This document shows, piece after piece, positions 4,905 to 56,682 of a stretch of 64,000 nucleotides of DNA. The stretch is from an uncultured Clostridia bacterium (lineage in GTDB: Bacteria; Bacillota; Clostridia; Oscillospirales; Acutalibacteraceae), in contig CANRNI010000011.1 in the NCBI GenBank assembly GCA_947631945.1, positions 1-64,000 of the forward strand, written 5' to 3'. Under the pieces are notes generated by a model that saw only the letters and a program-made list of their open reading frames with translations, had not been told where the DNA came from and ran no database searches. Position numbers and translations under genes: made by a program. Positions within the stretch are counted from its first letter, which is position 1, and the number at the start of each line of letters is the position of its first letter.

Positions 4905-5423
4905 GGTTTAATTCACTTCCAATCGCGTCCTCGACGCGTTTTTTTGCATTAACGGGCCGCCCCTGTTATGCGTTTTTTTAAGGCAATACCGCATAGTTAT
5001 TGTCGTGCAGATGTGCCGAAAAATTTTTCGTCAGATTGACAAAAGTGACGCAGGAATACTGGCGTATTGGGGGAGCTTTTGGCAAAAATGACGGAAAATC
5101 TCGGTGCAGATGCGCGGCAAAGGCGTTAGCCGCTAATTGTGCGGTATTGCCTTAATTATTTACTTTTCAGTCTACTACTGTTTTAATCAAATGTAAAGAC
5201 TGAAATTTTGTAAATCCAAAAAAATTTTTGACGGCTATTTAACTTTTCACGCACATTTTTTAATTTTGTAAATCTATTAAATGCTCTGATTTAAAAATAA
5301 AATTTCCGAATTTCAATTGTAATTATCTACATTATTTTCCGATTCCGACGCACTGTATATTATGCCTGTTTTTGCAAACACTACCCATGCAAACGAAAAT
5401 AAGTTATTTATGGAGTGAAAAAT
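4905..5423. other. Divergent intergenic region carrying repeat copy A
   Basis: This gap between the sigma gene (minus) and spoVT (plus) holds a full MITE-like copy at 4979-5154. The remainder (5155-5411) is AT-rich and should contain the spoVT promoter; no single -35/-10 pair stands out. Confidence 0.5.
4979..5154. mobile_element. MITE-like palindromic repeat, type 1, full copy A
   Basis: A 176-bp element bounded by TA on both sides. Its terminal inverted repeats are about 20 bp: AGGCAATACCGCATAGTTA on the left and TAATTGTGCGGTATTGCCT on the right. Inside, a second nested inverted repeat is formed by TTTTCGTCA and TGACGGAAAA. Near-identical copies occur at 16619-16794 and 21353-21530. No coding capacity. 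TA flanks are what IS630/Tc1-mariner-type transposases leave, so these are probably non-autonomous relatives of such an element; no transposase is in the window. Confidence 0.85.
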
Positions 5424-8977: not shown

Positions 8978-9151
8978 GGAACCACTGAATAAATCACGCC
9001 TGACGGCTGAACGCACATCTTGCGCCGCGATTTCCCGTCATTTTTGCCAAAAGCTCCTTGAAATACGTCAGTATTCCTGCGTCACTTTTGTCAATCTGAC
9101 GAAAAATCTCATGACGCAATATGCACGTTCGATTTAATCAGTGCTTCCCTA
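8975..9151. mobile_element. MITE-like palindromic repeat, type 2, full copy G
   Basis: A 177-bp element with TA at both ends and a different terminal inverted repeat, GGGAACCACTGAATAAATC on the left against GATTTAATCAGTGCTTCCC on the right. Its central part of about 85 bp, read in reverse, is almost identical to the core of the type 1 copies (TTTTTCGTCAGATTGACAAA through AGCTTTTGGCAAAAATGACG). It lies between the PHP gene and murC and supplies the PHP stop codon. Confidence 0.8.
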
Positions 9152-14151: not shown

Positions 14152-15138
14152 TTACAGTTTACCGTTCTTATTTATTCTGTCGTATATCCAATCAAGCGTA
14201 TGCATACCGCCGTATGAGAGCAGACACGCCATACGAACCCTGTTTTGCGCTTTCGGATTACAAACTACGTATCTTCTGTATTTTTTAATGTTATCCTCTA
14301 TATGACGTTTTTCACGCGGGTATAGATTTGAACAGTTACGCAGCTTCATATAAACCCAAAAATTGTTTTCAATAAGTCTGTTTACAAGAGCGTAAAAATA
14401 ATCCTTATTGTCTATATGTGTATCGGACGATATTATATGGTCATAAAGCCGTACATAATCATAGAATTTATAATAATTGCTTTTGTTATTCGTAACGCTG
14501 CTATGGTGCTGTACATAGTAATATAAAGCTTTGTTGGTATGCGCAACAATATTTGCGTTTGAAAATGTGTGATATACAATAAAGGTGTCTTCACCCATTA
14601 CATAGTCGGGAAAACGCAGTTTTTTAAATAGTGATTTATTGTAAAGTTTACTGCCGCTTGACGCGGAACATACCTTCCCGTAAAAAAGATTGGTAAGCGA
14701 TTCAATACCGCTCATACAAAAAATTTTATTTGAATCATCGGAAAATATGATTTTTTCACTTCTGTCAAAATTAATTCTGACATGACCGCAGGTGGATATA
14801 TCGGCATTTTCTGTTTTTATTGCGTTATACAGACATTCAATGTAGTTTTCGGCTACATAATCATCGGAATCAACAAATGTTACGAAATCGCCGGACATAA
14901 TGTCAAGTCCGGCGTTTCTTGCCGAGGAAACACCCTCATTTTTTCGATGCAAAACGACGATACGCTCATCATTTTGCTTTAATTCATCACAAATTGCTCC
15001 CGAATTATCGGGAGAACCGTCGTCAACGAGTATAATTTCAATATTTTTATATGTTTGTCCGCATAAACTATCAACGCATTTTCTTATAAAGCTTTCGGCA
15101 TTGTAAACAGGAACTATTATTGAGATTAAGGGGTTCAT
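14152..15138 (-). CDS. Family 2 glycosyltransferase
   Basis: A 328-residue GT-A enzyme. The first 110 residues hold the classic order SIIVPVYNAESFIRKCVDSL, EIILVDDGSPDNSG, HRKNEGVSSARNAGLD and FVDSDDYV (the DxD metal site, about residue 91). GEDTFIVYHTF (about 183-193) is the likely acceptor/catalytic ED motif. It probably adds a sugar to a cell-surface polysaccharide or lipid carrier. Its ATG overlaps the stop of the upstream integral membrane glycosyltransferase (ATGA), so the two probably serve one glycan pathway. Confidence 0.9.
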   Translation of the reverse strand: MNPLISIIVPVYNAESFIRKCVDSLCGQTYKNIEIILVDDGSPDNSGAICDELKQNDERIVVLHRKNEGVSSARNAGLDIMSGDFVTFVDSDDYVAENYIECLYNAIKTENADISTCGHVRINFDRSEKIIFSDDSNKIFCMSGIESLTNLFYGKVCSASSGSKLYNKSLFKKLRFPDYVMGEDTFIVYHTFSNANIVAHTNKALYYYVQHHSSVTNNKSNYYKFYDYVRLYDHIISSDTHIDNKDYFYALVNRLIENNFWVYMKLRNCSNLYPREKRHIEDNIKKYRRYVVCNPKAQNRVRMACLLSYGGMHTLDWIYDRINKNGKL

Positions 15139-16589
15139 GAAATTATCTTCTCCTTAGCTATAGACATACCGCTTAACTTATCGTCGTCCTTCTTGCTTTT
15201 CTTCTTATTTTTTTTAAGTCTTTTTGCGCAGAAAAGTATATCAAAAACAGTAAGAACAAACAGAAATTGGAATACAACAGTCGCTATATCCTGATTTAAC
15301 AGCGAATTATAATATAGACCGAGCGTTTCGCTCAATTTTTTTATGGGTTCGGGATGGTAATACCAGAAAGTCGGCAGCGGAGTAAGAAGCAGAGCAAATG
15401 CCGCCGTTACTATTCTGTCTATTGCTCTGAATTTTTTGCTTCCGAATAAGAACACACAAAACGGTATGACCATAAAAGAAAGCGCGTATGAATTTGAAGC
15501 CGACGGAATATTAAGCATCAGATAAGTGAGCAAAAATACCTTTTGCCACTCTCTTTTTGTGTAAAATGCGGCTATAAAAGCTATAAATTCCGTTATTATA
15601 CACGCAATTTTGGCAGAGAACGAGCCCGCGCCTATCATAAAAAAGATATTCTGTATACTTACGCTGCTGAAATTAAGGGAGTTTTTCTTATAAAGAGCAA
15701 AATTTGAAAGATTGTTTAATATCTTCATTATTGCCGATGAATTTCCGTCAGCAGTCGTAATTGACGATATACTTAAAAGCTGAGACATATAAGTATTAAT
15801 CAATGCCGGAGACGATTTAAATTCGTCTAAAAAGAAAACTATGGGAAATACAACAATCGCGACGCCGTATGCCATCAATCTCAAAGCGTCTTTATATTTT
15901 CTTTCTATAACGAGTATAAGTCCGAAAACCGCAGGATAAAGCTTGATTCCGGCCGCAACGGCCAATAAAATATATGAAAGCTCTTTAACCGTCTTATTTT
16001 CCGAATTTCTGAAAAATATAAAAAACATAGAGCATATCATGCTTAAAATAAGTATATTGCCTCTTTCAAGACAAAACATAACGGGATAGCTGATTATAAC
16101 CAAAAAAGCCGTAACAGTCGCATATGTTTTGAACTTGCCGTCGTTTTTTATATTAATATATGACTCAACCATTCTGAACAGCGAAAGTATGCAGACAATA
16201 GCGAAAACTATATAAATCATCATGCAAAGCTGATCCGACTGAAGAGTAGTCCGTCTACTGAAATATGACGATACAAGCTCGGGGGAGATAAGCTTTGAAA
16301 AAAATCTGAAAATCAATATGCATAAAGGCGGATATATATTATTTCTTTGGGTATAAACATCAGGTGACCCGCCGTCGCGAATCGAATTAAAAAAATCCAT
16401 AAACAAATCGGTTGAAGAACCGTTGTGGAAGAGCATTGATTTCCACGAATCGCCGCCGCTGGCCGCCGCAAGTACAATGCCGACAAACAGATTGGCAAGA
16501 AAGAAGACAATAAAAAATGTAAACAATCCTTTAACCGTCGGGGCGCGACGTTTTTTATTAGTGGTCAAATCCGATTTTTTCTTATTCAT
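15135..16589 (-). CDS. Multi-pass membrane glycosyltransferase, GT87/DUF2029-like
   Basis: A 484-residue protein with 10 or more hydrophobic helices. The first external loop carries the acidic motif MDFFNSIRDGGSPDVYTQRNNIYPPLCILIF, in which a YPP motif follows an acidic residue, as in polyprenyl-phosphate-dependent mannosyltransferases of the GT-C fold. VAAGIKLYPAVFGLILVIERKYKDA is the second conserved family signature. The C-terminus is a Lys-rich cytoplasmic tail. The ATG at 16589 is chosen, with AAAGG upstream; a longer frame starts inside repeat B and has no ribosome site. Donor and acceptor are unknown. Confidence 0.8.
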   Translation of the reverse strand: MNKKKSDLTTNKKRRAPTVKGLFTFFIVFFLANLFVGIVLAAASGGDSWKSMLFHNGSSTDLFMDFFNSIRDGGSPDVYTQRNNIYPPLCILIFRFFSKLISPELVSSYFSRRTTLQSDQLCMMIYIVFAIVCILSLFRMVESYINIKNDGKFKTYATVTAFLVIISYPVMFCLERGNILILSMICSMFFIFFRNSENKTVKELSYILLAVAAGIKLYPAVFGLILVIERKYKDALRLMAYGVAIVVFPIVFFLDEFKSSPALINTYMSQLLSISSITTADGNSSAIMKILNNLSNFALYKKNSLNFSSVSIQNIFFMIGAGSFSAKIACIITEFIAFIAAFYTKREWQKVFLLTYLMLNIPSASNSYALSFMVIPFCVFLFGSKKFRAIDRIVTAAFALLLTPLPTFWYYHPEPIKKLSETLGLYYNSLLNQDIATVVFQFLFVLTVFDILFCAKRLKKNKKKSKKDDDKLSGMSIAKEKIIS

Positions 16590-16618
16590 AATATAACCTT
16601 TCAGATGTTTATTGTATT

Positions 16619-16794
16619 TAAGGCAATACCGCATAATTATTGTCGTGCAGATGTGCCATGAGATTTTTCGTCAGATTGACAAAAGTGACGCAGAAATACT
16701 GACGTATTGGGGGAGCTTTTGGCAAAAATGACGGAAAATATCGGTACAGATGCACGGCAAAGGCGGCAGCCGCTAATTGTGCGGTATTGCCTTA
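16619..16794. mobile_element. MITE-like palindromic repeat, type 1, full copy B
   Basis: 176 bp, the same length as copy A, in the same orientation and differing at few positions. TA is present at both ends and the termini are AGGCAATACCGCATAATTA and TAATTGTGCGGTATTGCCT. It sits just upstream of the membrane glycosyltransferase gene. Confidence 0.85.
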
Positions 16795-16908
16795 ATATAT
16801 ATTACCACGCCCGGCGCTTTTTTTCAATATAATTCGATATATATTTTGCAGAAATTGTGTAAAAATGAAACGGTATATTGATACAACGGGAATCGGGAAA
16901 ATGAAAAG

Positions 16909-16948: not shown

Positions 16949-17043
16949 AAATTACTGAATAAATCACGTCCTGCGGACTGAACGCGTATCCATTTTGCCA
17001 AAAAATATGACGGAAATATGCGCGTTCGATTTAATCGGTAATT
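16949..17043. mobile_element. Shortened type 2 repeat, copy H
   Basis: AATTACTGAATAAATCACG on the left mirrors CGATTTAATCGGTAATT on the right, matching the inner part of the type 2 termini. Only about 95 bp remain; the shared core is reduced to a CATTTTGCCAAAAAATATGACGG-like trace (about 16992-17015). A deletion derivative. Confidence 0.6.
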
Positions 17044-17064
17044 GCTTAATTCTATCGGTAAATT

Positions 17065-21333: not shown

Positions 21334-21352
21334 AGCAAGGCTATTACAGTTA

Positions 21353-21530
21353 TAGGGCAATACCGCATAATTATTGTCGTGCATATGTGCCAAGAGATTT
21401 TTCGTCAGATTGACAAAAAATGACGCAGGAATACTGACGTATTTCAAGGAGTTTTTGGCAAAAATGACGGAAAATCTCGGTGCAGATGCGCGGCAAAGGC
21501 GGTAGCCGTTAATTGTGCGGTATTGCCATA
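21353..21530. mobile_element. MITE-like palindromic repeat, type 1, full copy C
   Basis: 178 bp, flanked by TA. Termini are GGGCAATACCGCATAATTA and TAATTGTGCGGTATTGCCA, so the outermost base of the usual AGGC/GCCT has changed on both sides. Its core has TATTTCAAGGAG like the type 2 copy G rather than TATTGGGGGAG as in A and B. Confidence 0.85.
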
Positions 21531-21545
21531 GACAGAGGTGTAAAA

Positions 21546-26658: not shown

Positions 26659-26715
26659 GGCAACGCCGCGCAATTGTCGGCTTACGCCTTTGCGACGCAT
26701 ATGCCCGGCAATAAT
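26658..26715. mobile_element. Degenerate partial type 1 repeat, copy I
   Basis: AGGCAACGCCGCGCAATTG and the following CGGCTTACGCCTTTGCGACGCATATGCCC match the right arm of the type 1 element in reverse orientation with several substitutions. The core and the other arm are absent. The first base is the last base of the serC stop codon. Confidence 0.6.
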
Positions 26716-32559: not shown

Positions 32560-32644
32560 ACCTTTTCATCTCCCTCAACTAATTATATTAAACCACAGTC
32601 AAACTAAAAATGAGTAATGGATTTATAAAGAAAAAATAAAGATT

Positions 32645-32673
32645 TAAGGCAATACCGCATAATTATTGTCGTG
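32645..32673. mobile_element. Terminal fragment of a type 1 repeat, copy D
   Basis: TA followed by AGGCAATACCGCATAATTA and TTGTCGTG, identical to the left end of copy B, after which similarity stops. It lies 14 bp beyond the mtaB stop codon. Confidence 0.75.
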
Positions 32674-42664: not shown

Positions 42665-42715
42665 CGATACAGATGCCGTACAAAATGAAATAAAAATTCG
42701 CCCGGTATTGCCTTA
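42665..42715. mobile_element. Remnant of a type 1 repeat, copy L
   Basis: GATACAGATGCCGTACAA recalls the right arm of copy B (GGTACAGATGCACGGCAA), and CGGTATTGCCTTA (42703-42715) is the exact terminus with TA. The core and left end are missing. Confidence 0.5.
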
Positions 42716-55733: not shown

Positions 55734-55764
55734 TATTTTATTTCCTTTCGGCTTTATCTCTTTT

Positions 55765-55852
55765 TAAGGCAACACCGCACAATTAACGGCTGCCGCCTGA
55801 CGAAAAATCTTTCGGTACATCTGCACGACAATAATTATGCGGTATTGCCTTA
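55765..55852. mobile_element. Core-deleted type 1 repeat, copy E, inside the nadC reading frame
   Basis: An 88-bp element with TA at both ends and intact type 1 termini (AGGCAACACCGCACAATTA and TAATTATGCGGTATTGCCT). The shared core has been deleted between CGTCA and GGCGGCAGCC. Its minus strand is read as the last 21 or so codons of nadC, and the nadC TAA (55783-55785) lies within it. Confidence 0.8.
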
Positions 55853-56682
55853 ATTTTCATGGAAATGTCAAACGCTTTTACAGAGTGTGTTATGGCTCCC
55901 ATTGAAATTATATCAACGCCCGTTTCCGCGACAGACCTTATATTTTCAAGCGTGACATTGCCCGAAGCTTCTGTAAGCGCTCTTCCGTTTATGATTTTTA
56001 CGGCTTGAGTCATCTGTTCGCAGGTCATATTGTCGAGCATGATAATATCGGCTCCCGCATTTACGGCTTCATTTACTTCTTCGGTATTTCTTGTTTCAAC
56101 TTCTATTTTTACCGTATGACCAATTTTTTTGCGTAACACTTCTATGGTTTTCGTTATTCCTCCGCCGGCGTCGATATGATTATCTTTAAGCATAACGGCG
56201 TCGGAAAGATTATACCTGTGATTATGTCCTCCTCCGCAGGTTACGGCGTATTTCTGAATTGCTCTGAGCCCGGGTAGCGTTTTTCTTGTATCGGCAATCG
56301 ACGCGCCCGTTCCCTCGACGGCCTTTACAGCCGCGTTTGTCATAGTGGCAATTCCCGACATATGCTGCAATAAATTGAGCGACGTTCTTTCTCCCTCAAG
56401 GAGCTTTAATGTTTTTCCGCTGAAATCCGCTATAACGTCGCCCTTTTTTAGCTCGTTGCCGTCGCGCTTGTAAAGCGTATATTCAAAAGTCGGGTCAAGC
56501 AGAGAAAATACTCTCAAAGCAACGTCCGTTCCGCACAGAATACCGTCGGCTTTTGATACGAAATATGCGTTTGTCCTGTCGTTTTCTCCGAAAATATACG
56601 CTGACGAAACGTCGATGTAATTTATATCCTCGGTTATCGCCCTTTTAATAAGCTCGTCAATATAAAAATCGGGAAGCGTCAT
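55783..56682 (-). CDS. nadC: Nicotinate-nucleotide pyrophosphorylase (carboxylating)
   Basis: A 299-residue quinolinate phosphoribosyltransferase. LLQHMSGIATMTNA, ADTRKTLPGLRAIQKYAVTCGGGHNHRYNLSDAVMLKDNHI (about 124-165), VKIEVETRNTEEV and DIIMLDNM are the substrate and PRPP site motifs; ISMGAITHSVKAFDISMKI is the normal end. After it come about 21 residues (AIPHNYCRADVPKDFSSGG and SR) encoded by a MITE-like repeat, a non-native tail. The ATG at 56682 overlaps the nadB stop (ATGA). It makes nicotinate mononucleotide from quinolinate in NAD synthesis. Confidence 0.95.
   Translation of the reverse strand: MTLPDFYIDELIKRAITEDINYIDVSSAYIFGENDRTNAYFVSKADGILCGTDVALRVFSLLDPTFEYTLYKRDGNELKKGDVIADFSGKTLKLLEGERTSLNLLQHMSGIATMTNAAVKAVEGTGASIADTRKTLPGLRAIQKYAVTCGGGHNHRYNLSDAVMLKDNHIDAGGGITKTIEVLRKKIGHTVKIEVETRNTEEVNEAVNAGADIIMLDNMTCEQMTQAVKIINGRALTEASGNVTLENIRSVAETGVDIISMGAITHSVKAFDISMKIKAIPHNYCRADVPKDFSSGGSR

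Follow-up and report, generated by a model that had tools for sequence, protein, structure and literature searches.

A ~171-bp non-autonomous transposon of an uncultured Clostridia bacterium, likely moved by an IS5-type transposase, carries an order-wide covarying hairpin core predicted as RNA

Copies of the repeat in the window and the genome

The window (the whole 64,000-nucleotide stretch of DNA analysed) contains three near-identical full copies (A, B and C, 170-172 bp) of a MITE termed family 1, one complete copy of a sister family (family 2) and remnants of both, as follows:

4982-5151 (4978..5155 with TTAA each side), + strand: copy A, full 170-bp family-1 MITE, core 5022-5100
16622-16791 (16618..16795 with TTAA/TTAA), + strand: copy B, full 170-bp family-1 MITE, core 16662-16740
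21356-21527 (21352..21531 with ATAG/ATAG), + strand: copy C, full 172-bp family-1 MITE, core 21396-21476 (81 bits)
8978..9148, - strand: full 171-bp family-2 MITE, ends GGAAGCACTGATTAAATC / GGAACCACTGAATAAATC, core 9029-9108, unlike flanks (GTAG/CTAA)
55768-55849 (55764..55853 with TTAA/TTAA), - strand: 82-bp family-1 copy with internal deletion, core lost
32644..32673, + strand: lone left end of family 1, exact, from 32648, preceded by TTAA
62399..62427, + strand: lone left end of family 1, exact, from 62403
26659..26715, + strand: possible decayed family-1 end, at a weak level (4 mismatches in the 18-base terminus)
17015..17050, - strand: decayed family-2 end (4 mismatches in 18)

The family-1 element proper runs from GGCAATACCGCA to TGCGGTATTGCC and has terminal inverted repeats (GGCAATACCGCATAATTA and GGCAATACCGCACAATTA at the two ends), as a MITE does. 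The RNA folding energy of copy A is -87 kcal/mol (z -10.3 compared to 200 shuffles) and the whole unit is one long hairpin, which bears out the palindromic, MITE-like repeat described in the initial annotation. Its placing of A, B and C as near-identical copies also stands, except that A and B proper are 3 bp shorter at each end. Among the fragments it listed, those at 55768-55849, 32648 and 62403 were recovered and that at 26659 is weak, but 42665-42715 gave no terminus match at up to 4 mismatches, with a short GGTATTGCC-like end alone visible. The complete family-2 element at 8978-9148, which has the same core, had been overlooked.

A search of the bacterium's own 2.99-Mb genome (103 contigs) with the 20-base terminus gave 389 matches at up to 3 mismatches (199 forward, 190 reverse) compared to 1 forward and 0 reverse for the reversed control, so that the hundreds of copies per genome foreseen from the window hold good for termini. 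Several contigs start approximately 55 bases from a terminus (C1:56-75, C4:55-74, C16:53-72, C42:54-73, C57:54-73, C71:57-76); the assembly therefore seems to break at copies, and the true number may be higher. A sample of ~850 kb, made up of 40 stretches of this genome and the window, contained 203 matches to the 18-base family-1 terminus at up to 4 mismatches (reversed control 16). Ten genomes of the same genus searched with the element gave 0 matches and five gave 0 copies of the core pattern described below, which suggests that the burst of the element in its own lineage was recent.

A 499-aa frame on the minus strand (15135-16634 of the window) has its ATG, by a mechanical call, inside the end of copy B, and this copy may supply the start codon or the 5' leader of the gene. 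Short hybrids that combine one family-1 end with one family-2 end and have unmatched duplications were found at C4:13719-13790 and C3:99526-99595 of the own genome. In another genome, G800 (C1:415265-415626, L448), two family-1 left ends lie ~340 bp apart, each directly followed by a short palindrome ending GCGGTATCGCC, a minimal form of ~30 bp.

Target duplication and empty sites

Full-length family-1 copies were defined as end pairs 165-176 bp apart, giving 49 in the sample. Identical 4-mers flanked 43 of the 49 and unlike 4-mers the remaining 6, with flank identity at 2, 3, 5 and 6 bases in 1, 1, 0 and 1 copies, respectively. The 43 identical 4-mers were TTAA (27), TTTA (5), TTAG (3), TAAA (2) and one each of CTAA, ATAG, TTGA, TTAT, ATAA and TATA. 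When the copies with TTAA on both sides were set aside, 16 of the other 22 still had identical 4-mers, compared to a mean of 2.4 and a maximum of 9 in 10,000 shuffles. The IS5 family follows a YTAR target rule; TTAA, TTAG or CTAA made up 31 of the 43 identical pairs, and 12 departed from this motif.

Two family-1 insertions were found inside family-2 copies, a 127-bp derivative at C1:18235 and a full-length element (171 bp) at C4:3673. With one 4-mer and the element removed, the flanks of both align gap-free to intact family-2 copies. A copy in G800 (TTAA/TTAA) was absent from the orthologous gap in three other genomes (G989, G901 and G988), and the alignment of G989 and G901 crosses the joined site, although the region is diverged. 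Based on the 4-mer test, the nested insertions and these orthologous gaps, the target duplication of family 1 is 4 bp and not TA, and the combination of inverted ends, a duplication of fixed length and empty sites makes the repeat a MITE. Empty sites with a single TA had been anticipated; those found, two nested and the others orthologous and diverged, have a 4-bp target.

The initial annotation had read TA on both sides of the repeat as the target and proposed mobilisation of the IS630/Tc1-mariner type. TA does flank most copies, because the usual target is TTAA, and it also flanks core-bearing repeats of two other genomes (5/5 copies in G346 and 3/4 in G109). A TA duplication was nevertheless rejected for family 1 by the identical 4-mers, TTTA, TAAA and TTGA among them, and the sister family has the ends of IS5-type elements (below), so that an IS630/Tc1-mariner MITE with a TA target is an extremely improbable description of family 1. 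Copies of only 71 bp with intact duplications also exist; they are no proof that the ends alone suffice for movement, because the core could be lost after insertion by deletion between the GTGCAGATG repeats of the two arms.

A second family and a candidate transposase

The family-2 end GGAAGCACTGATTAAATC had 93 matches at up to 4 mismatches in the sample (reversed control 1). Identical 4-mers flanked 9 of 23 family-2 pairs, and family 2 looks older than family 1. The inner 80 bases are common to both families, and each also has a long form (~275 bp) whose core contains additional sequence.

In a relative, G791, a complete 1.25-kb element with family-2 ends was identified, flanked by TTAA/TTAA, its right end differing from the left by 3 mismatches in 18. 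The 332-aa transposase that it encodes matched the IS5 model NF033581 of NCBIfam with 308.9 bits (cut-off 140) as well as the Pfam domains DDE_Tnp_1 and DUF772. A second complete IS5-type element with family-2 ends, flanked by ATAA/ATAA, lies on a Subdoligranulum variabile plasmid (OY725846.1), and its protein has 57.6% identity, in two pieces, to the G791 transposase. Five further copies in G904 are cut by contig ends (left flanks CTAG, CTAA, TTAA, CTAA and CTAA); by eye, their proteins are similar to that of G791 over roughly the first twenty residues. Shared ends between a MITE and an IS5-type element are therefore seen for family 2, and no such partner was found for family 1: no insertion sequence with family-1 ends was found in the ~850-kb sample or in G800, nor by eye among the matches listed, and in G800, which is a single contig, none of 33 places had a transposase with these ends.

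Three neighbouring inward pairs of family-1 ends, 0.6-3 kb apart in the sample, were considered as possible larger elements and rejected, each having a 4-mismatch partner near the control level. The DDE_Tnp_1 matches in the own genome were likewise rejected, one being IS5-like with other ends (GTCTACACAAG) and two being pieces that look by eye like IS1182. On contig C49 of the own genome (L116, 640-1490) an IS5-like element with two overlapping frames and the ends GTCTACACAAG directly adjoins a family-2 end. In another genome (G013, L037, 868-1750) an IS5-type transposase frame truncated at its 5' end stops next to a family-2 MITE; this MITE has CTTG on both sides and is inserted near the family-2-like right end of the insertion sequence.

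Because the family-1 duplications are 4 bp long and centred on TTAA, we infer an IS5-type mover for this family as well, and an IS5-family transposase likely moves it in trans.

A hairpin core common to different ends

BLAST with the family-2 element revealed that a short segment close to the apex is found again in other genera, where the surrounding sequence is unrelated. The pattern GCAGGAATAC-NNNN-GTATTTCAAG (1 mismatch allowed) was present in 39 of the 398 genomes searched from the same taxonomic family, representing 27 of 135 genera, with 0 in the reversed control. The highest number of plain-pattern copies, 154, was in the own genome, and most genomes had few. Named records with the pattern, among the matches listed, were from Ruminococcus sp., Oscillospiraceae, Ruminococcaceae and other Clostridia, many of gut or rumen origin.

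Five genomes (G109, G140, G256, G346 and G193) carry the pattern within repeats for which the representative copies measure 271-277 bp and fold along their entire length, the ends being GGCTGACGGGAGTCGAAC, GCAAAAGGGAGTCGAAC, GGGAGTTGCGATTAGGGA, GGCAATGCAATCAGGG and TAGTCAATGCAATCAGGG, respectively; GGGAGTCGAAC is common to the ends of G109 and G140, and CAATGCAATCAGGG to those of G346 and G193. Families 1 and 2 counted, the ~80-nt hairpin core lies under at least five groups of ends. The G346 copies have TA on both sides with unlike 4-mers in all five cases with both ends in view, and three of four G109 copies are also flanked by TA; given the G346 flanks, movers other than that of family 1 are likely to act in G346. 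Another core-bearing repeat, with the apical helix CAGGC/GCCTG, is nested ~157 bp inside a G140-type element at two loci (L154 and L174, in G140 and G238).

A covariance model of the core (R1) at E ≤ 1e-4 matched 100 of 295 genomes of the order, in 54 of 149 genera and 17 families (our own count of rows), with rough E-values, strict filters and at most 15 candidates scored per genome. In a draw across the phylum 5 of 299 genomes matched, 3 of them the own genome or members of the same order. The genome G945 has 97 family-2 termini and no R1 match at 1e-4, its copies having a simpler apex and a best R1 score of 26 bits; the full core is therefore not needed for abundance.

Rfam gave 0 matches in the window, and for 20 core loci it gave 8 at E ≤ 5, all below the gathering score. 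Two exact patterns matched nothing in viral_contigs. A protein recurring next to the core was sought at 110 loci and the idea set aside: the large clusters seemed to be reading frames that belong to the elements, and one further cluster comprised seven loci. Five records labelled 'Bacteriophage sp.' from human feces (unverified; MT835480, MT835489, MT836531, MT835885 and MT835572; L372-L375 and L377) carry family-1 elements; they may be bacterial, because the insertion place in L375 matches by eye that of a G800 copy (L354). A search of open-licence papers found no description of these repeats.

Covariation and strand bias of the core

The apical helix of the core is mostly AATAC/GTATT, with AATCC/GGATT, AAGCC/GGCTT, CTTGC/GCAAG, CAGGC/GCCTG, AAGGC/GCCTT and AAACC/GGTTT as variants, all next to GCAGG and TCAAG. 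The helix scan demanded pairing plus one of eight flank pairs, and so reports the helices occurring at that place and not the invariance of the flanks; the CTTGC, AAACC and AATCC helices had been found by BLAST before the scan. The seeds of R1 came from the scan, and the apical pairing at the seed stage (14 of 17 pairs changed on both sides) is thus partly due to choice. Across 52 aligned R1 matches, 16 of 17 pairs had changes on both sides, including 5 of 6 and 4 of 4 pairs in the two outer helices, which were unselected. Paired cells in these 52 matches made up 93.2%, compared to 68.4% in shuffled alignments (0 of 500 reached the observed value) and 33-49.5% in slid ones, although the alignment was fitted to the R1 model, which favours pairing.

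Neither strand of a hairpin is favoured while the DNA is double-stranded, and G·T and A·C mismatches would then be expected in equal numbers. Both were counted after pairing the arms with all mismatches scored alike and leaving out the apical helix; the 186 core sequences were reduced to 178 distinct, 166 with enough flank and 111 at <75% identity. Embedded G·T outnumbered A·C by 164 to 40 in these 111 non-redundant cores, 76 of which were richer in G·T and 6 in A·C. The bias was present both in the 48 plain-pattern cores, for which no RNA model is needed (58:11; 33 sequences compared to 3), and in the other 63 (106:29; 43 compared to 3). The own copies gave 121:11 for family 1 (49 copies) and 34:1 for family 2 (17 copies), counts from copies that are not independent, and the outer arms of 13 representative full elements gave 22:5. 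The strand carrying the motif folded better than its complement in 49/49 family-1 copies, 17/17 family-2 copies and 109/111 non-redundant cores, with folding energies for family 1 of -86.9 and -56.4, respectively. Since G·T outnumbers A·C on the motif strand, one folded strand is under selection over its whole length. The simplest reading of this bias is that the folded strand would be RNA.

The repeat could instead be a plain IS5 MITE with the core as an accidental interior, its spread over genera being due to descent and horizontal transfer. Core and family-1 ends do travel together in G800, in the fecal records and on a Subdoligranulum plasmid, and elements with a simpler core thrive in G945. 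However, the ends in G800 and the fecal records are nearly identical to the own ends, yet the apical helix differs with compensation, and this, together with the strand bias and the two-sided changes found in each of the three helices, leaves an accidental interior very unlikely.

Proposed role of the core

Placement and orientation were examined in 79 copies, of which 78 were oriented and one had no neighbour. None of the 78 lay inside a called frame (0/78), by crude calling with a coding fraction of 0.86. Orientation relative to both flanking genes had no bias (family 1, 19 with and 20 against; family 2, 7 and 12). A cis role in transcripts would predict such a bias; the neutrality counts against it, and a cis role read from gene orientation was dropped.

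Neutral orientation is what would be predicted if the folded strand were single-stranded DNA, a transposition intermediate or recognition structure (e.g., at replication forks) whose core binds the transposase or a helper. Such a structure needs no transcription, and the strand bias demonstrates a folded strand and not RNA as such, because G·T pairs could produce it in single-stranded DNA as well. G·T is, however, less favoured in DNA than in RNA, and IS5-type enzymes act on double-stranded ends. The IS5 elements searched also lacked the core, R1 having no match in two complete elements (L450 and L451) or in three partial ones (L430, L434 and L437), so that binding of the transposase is not a likely role for it. 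Moreover, the ends that enclose the core do not all have the same duplication, which is 4 bp for family 1 and TA for G346. For these reasons we consider the single-stranded DNA explanation unlikely.

We therefore favour, as the probable account, a ~171-bp non-autonomous transposon with a 4-bp duplication, likely moved by an IS5-type enzyme, with an order-wide covarying hairpin core predicted as RNA. An element of this kind would be copied into the read-through transcripts of its intergenic landing places and, once transcribed, would fold into one long hairpin. Within the hairpin, a host RNA-binding protein or nuclease could bind the conserved internal loops (GCAGG facing UCAAG, and further out a flipped loop of similar kind), and might process or shield the transcript and so make insertions tolerable. 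This protein-bound processing of read-through transcripts is the least certain part of the account, and our confidence in it is low. More broadly, and tentatively, the covarying hairpin RNA may have spread across an entire order of gut bacteria as a passenger that switches vehicles (at least five end groups, two kinds of duplication), either as a selected host-facing module or as selfish cargo that outlives its carriers.

Comparison with known systems

In the usual view, a MITE consists of transposon ends that enclose junk. The interior of the present repeat is conserved in 54 of 149 sampled genera, shows the features expected of one folded strand and occurs under different ends. Provided that the RNA is real, Rfam lacks its class, of which a genome can contain up to ~150 plain-pattern copies although most contain few. 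The repeat offers a testable case of whether a bacterial repeat family is kept alive by its ends or by its RNA.

ERIC elements target TA, and to our knowledge no shared core under exchanged ends exists among them. The Correia elements of Neisseria differ from the present repeat in ends, hosts and fold. In the excerpted text of a review of prokaryotic MITEs, in which neither 'clostridi' nor 'TTAA' occurs, ERIC is an intergenic palindromic MITE of enterobacteria with up to hundreds of copies that affects transcripts, and Correia elements are MITEs whose transcripts are cut by RNase III (PMC10969869). In excerpts of other papers, bcr1-bcr3 of the Bacillus cereus group are MITE-like, high in copy number and often in UTRs or operon gaps (PMC3446304), their mobility is linked to a TTTAT motif (PMC6542083), and Bcr1 is listed in a table with conserved structure (PMC2267715). 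Compared by description, ERIC differs from the present repeat in sequence and hosts, and bcr1-bcr3 are limited to one species group, with no core common to elements with different ends described in those excerpts. Compared to IS5-family insertion sequences (YTAR target) and their MITEs, the present repeat has no transposase gene, carries an RNA-like core absent from the insertion sequences and has no insertion sequence found for its family-1 ends, but it shares with them 4-bp duplications centred on TTAA, and its family-2 ends match those of IS5-type elements.
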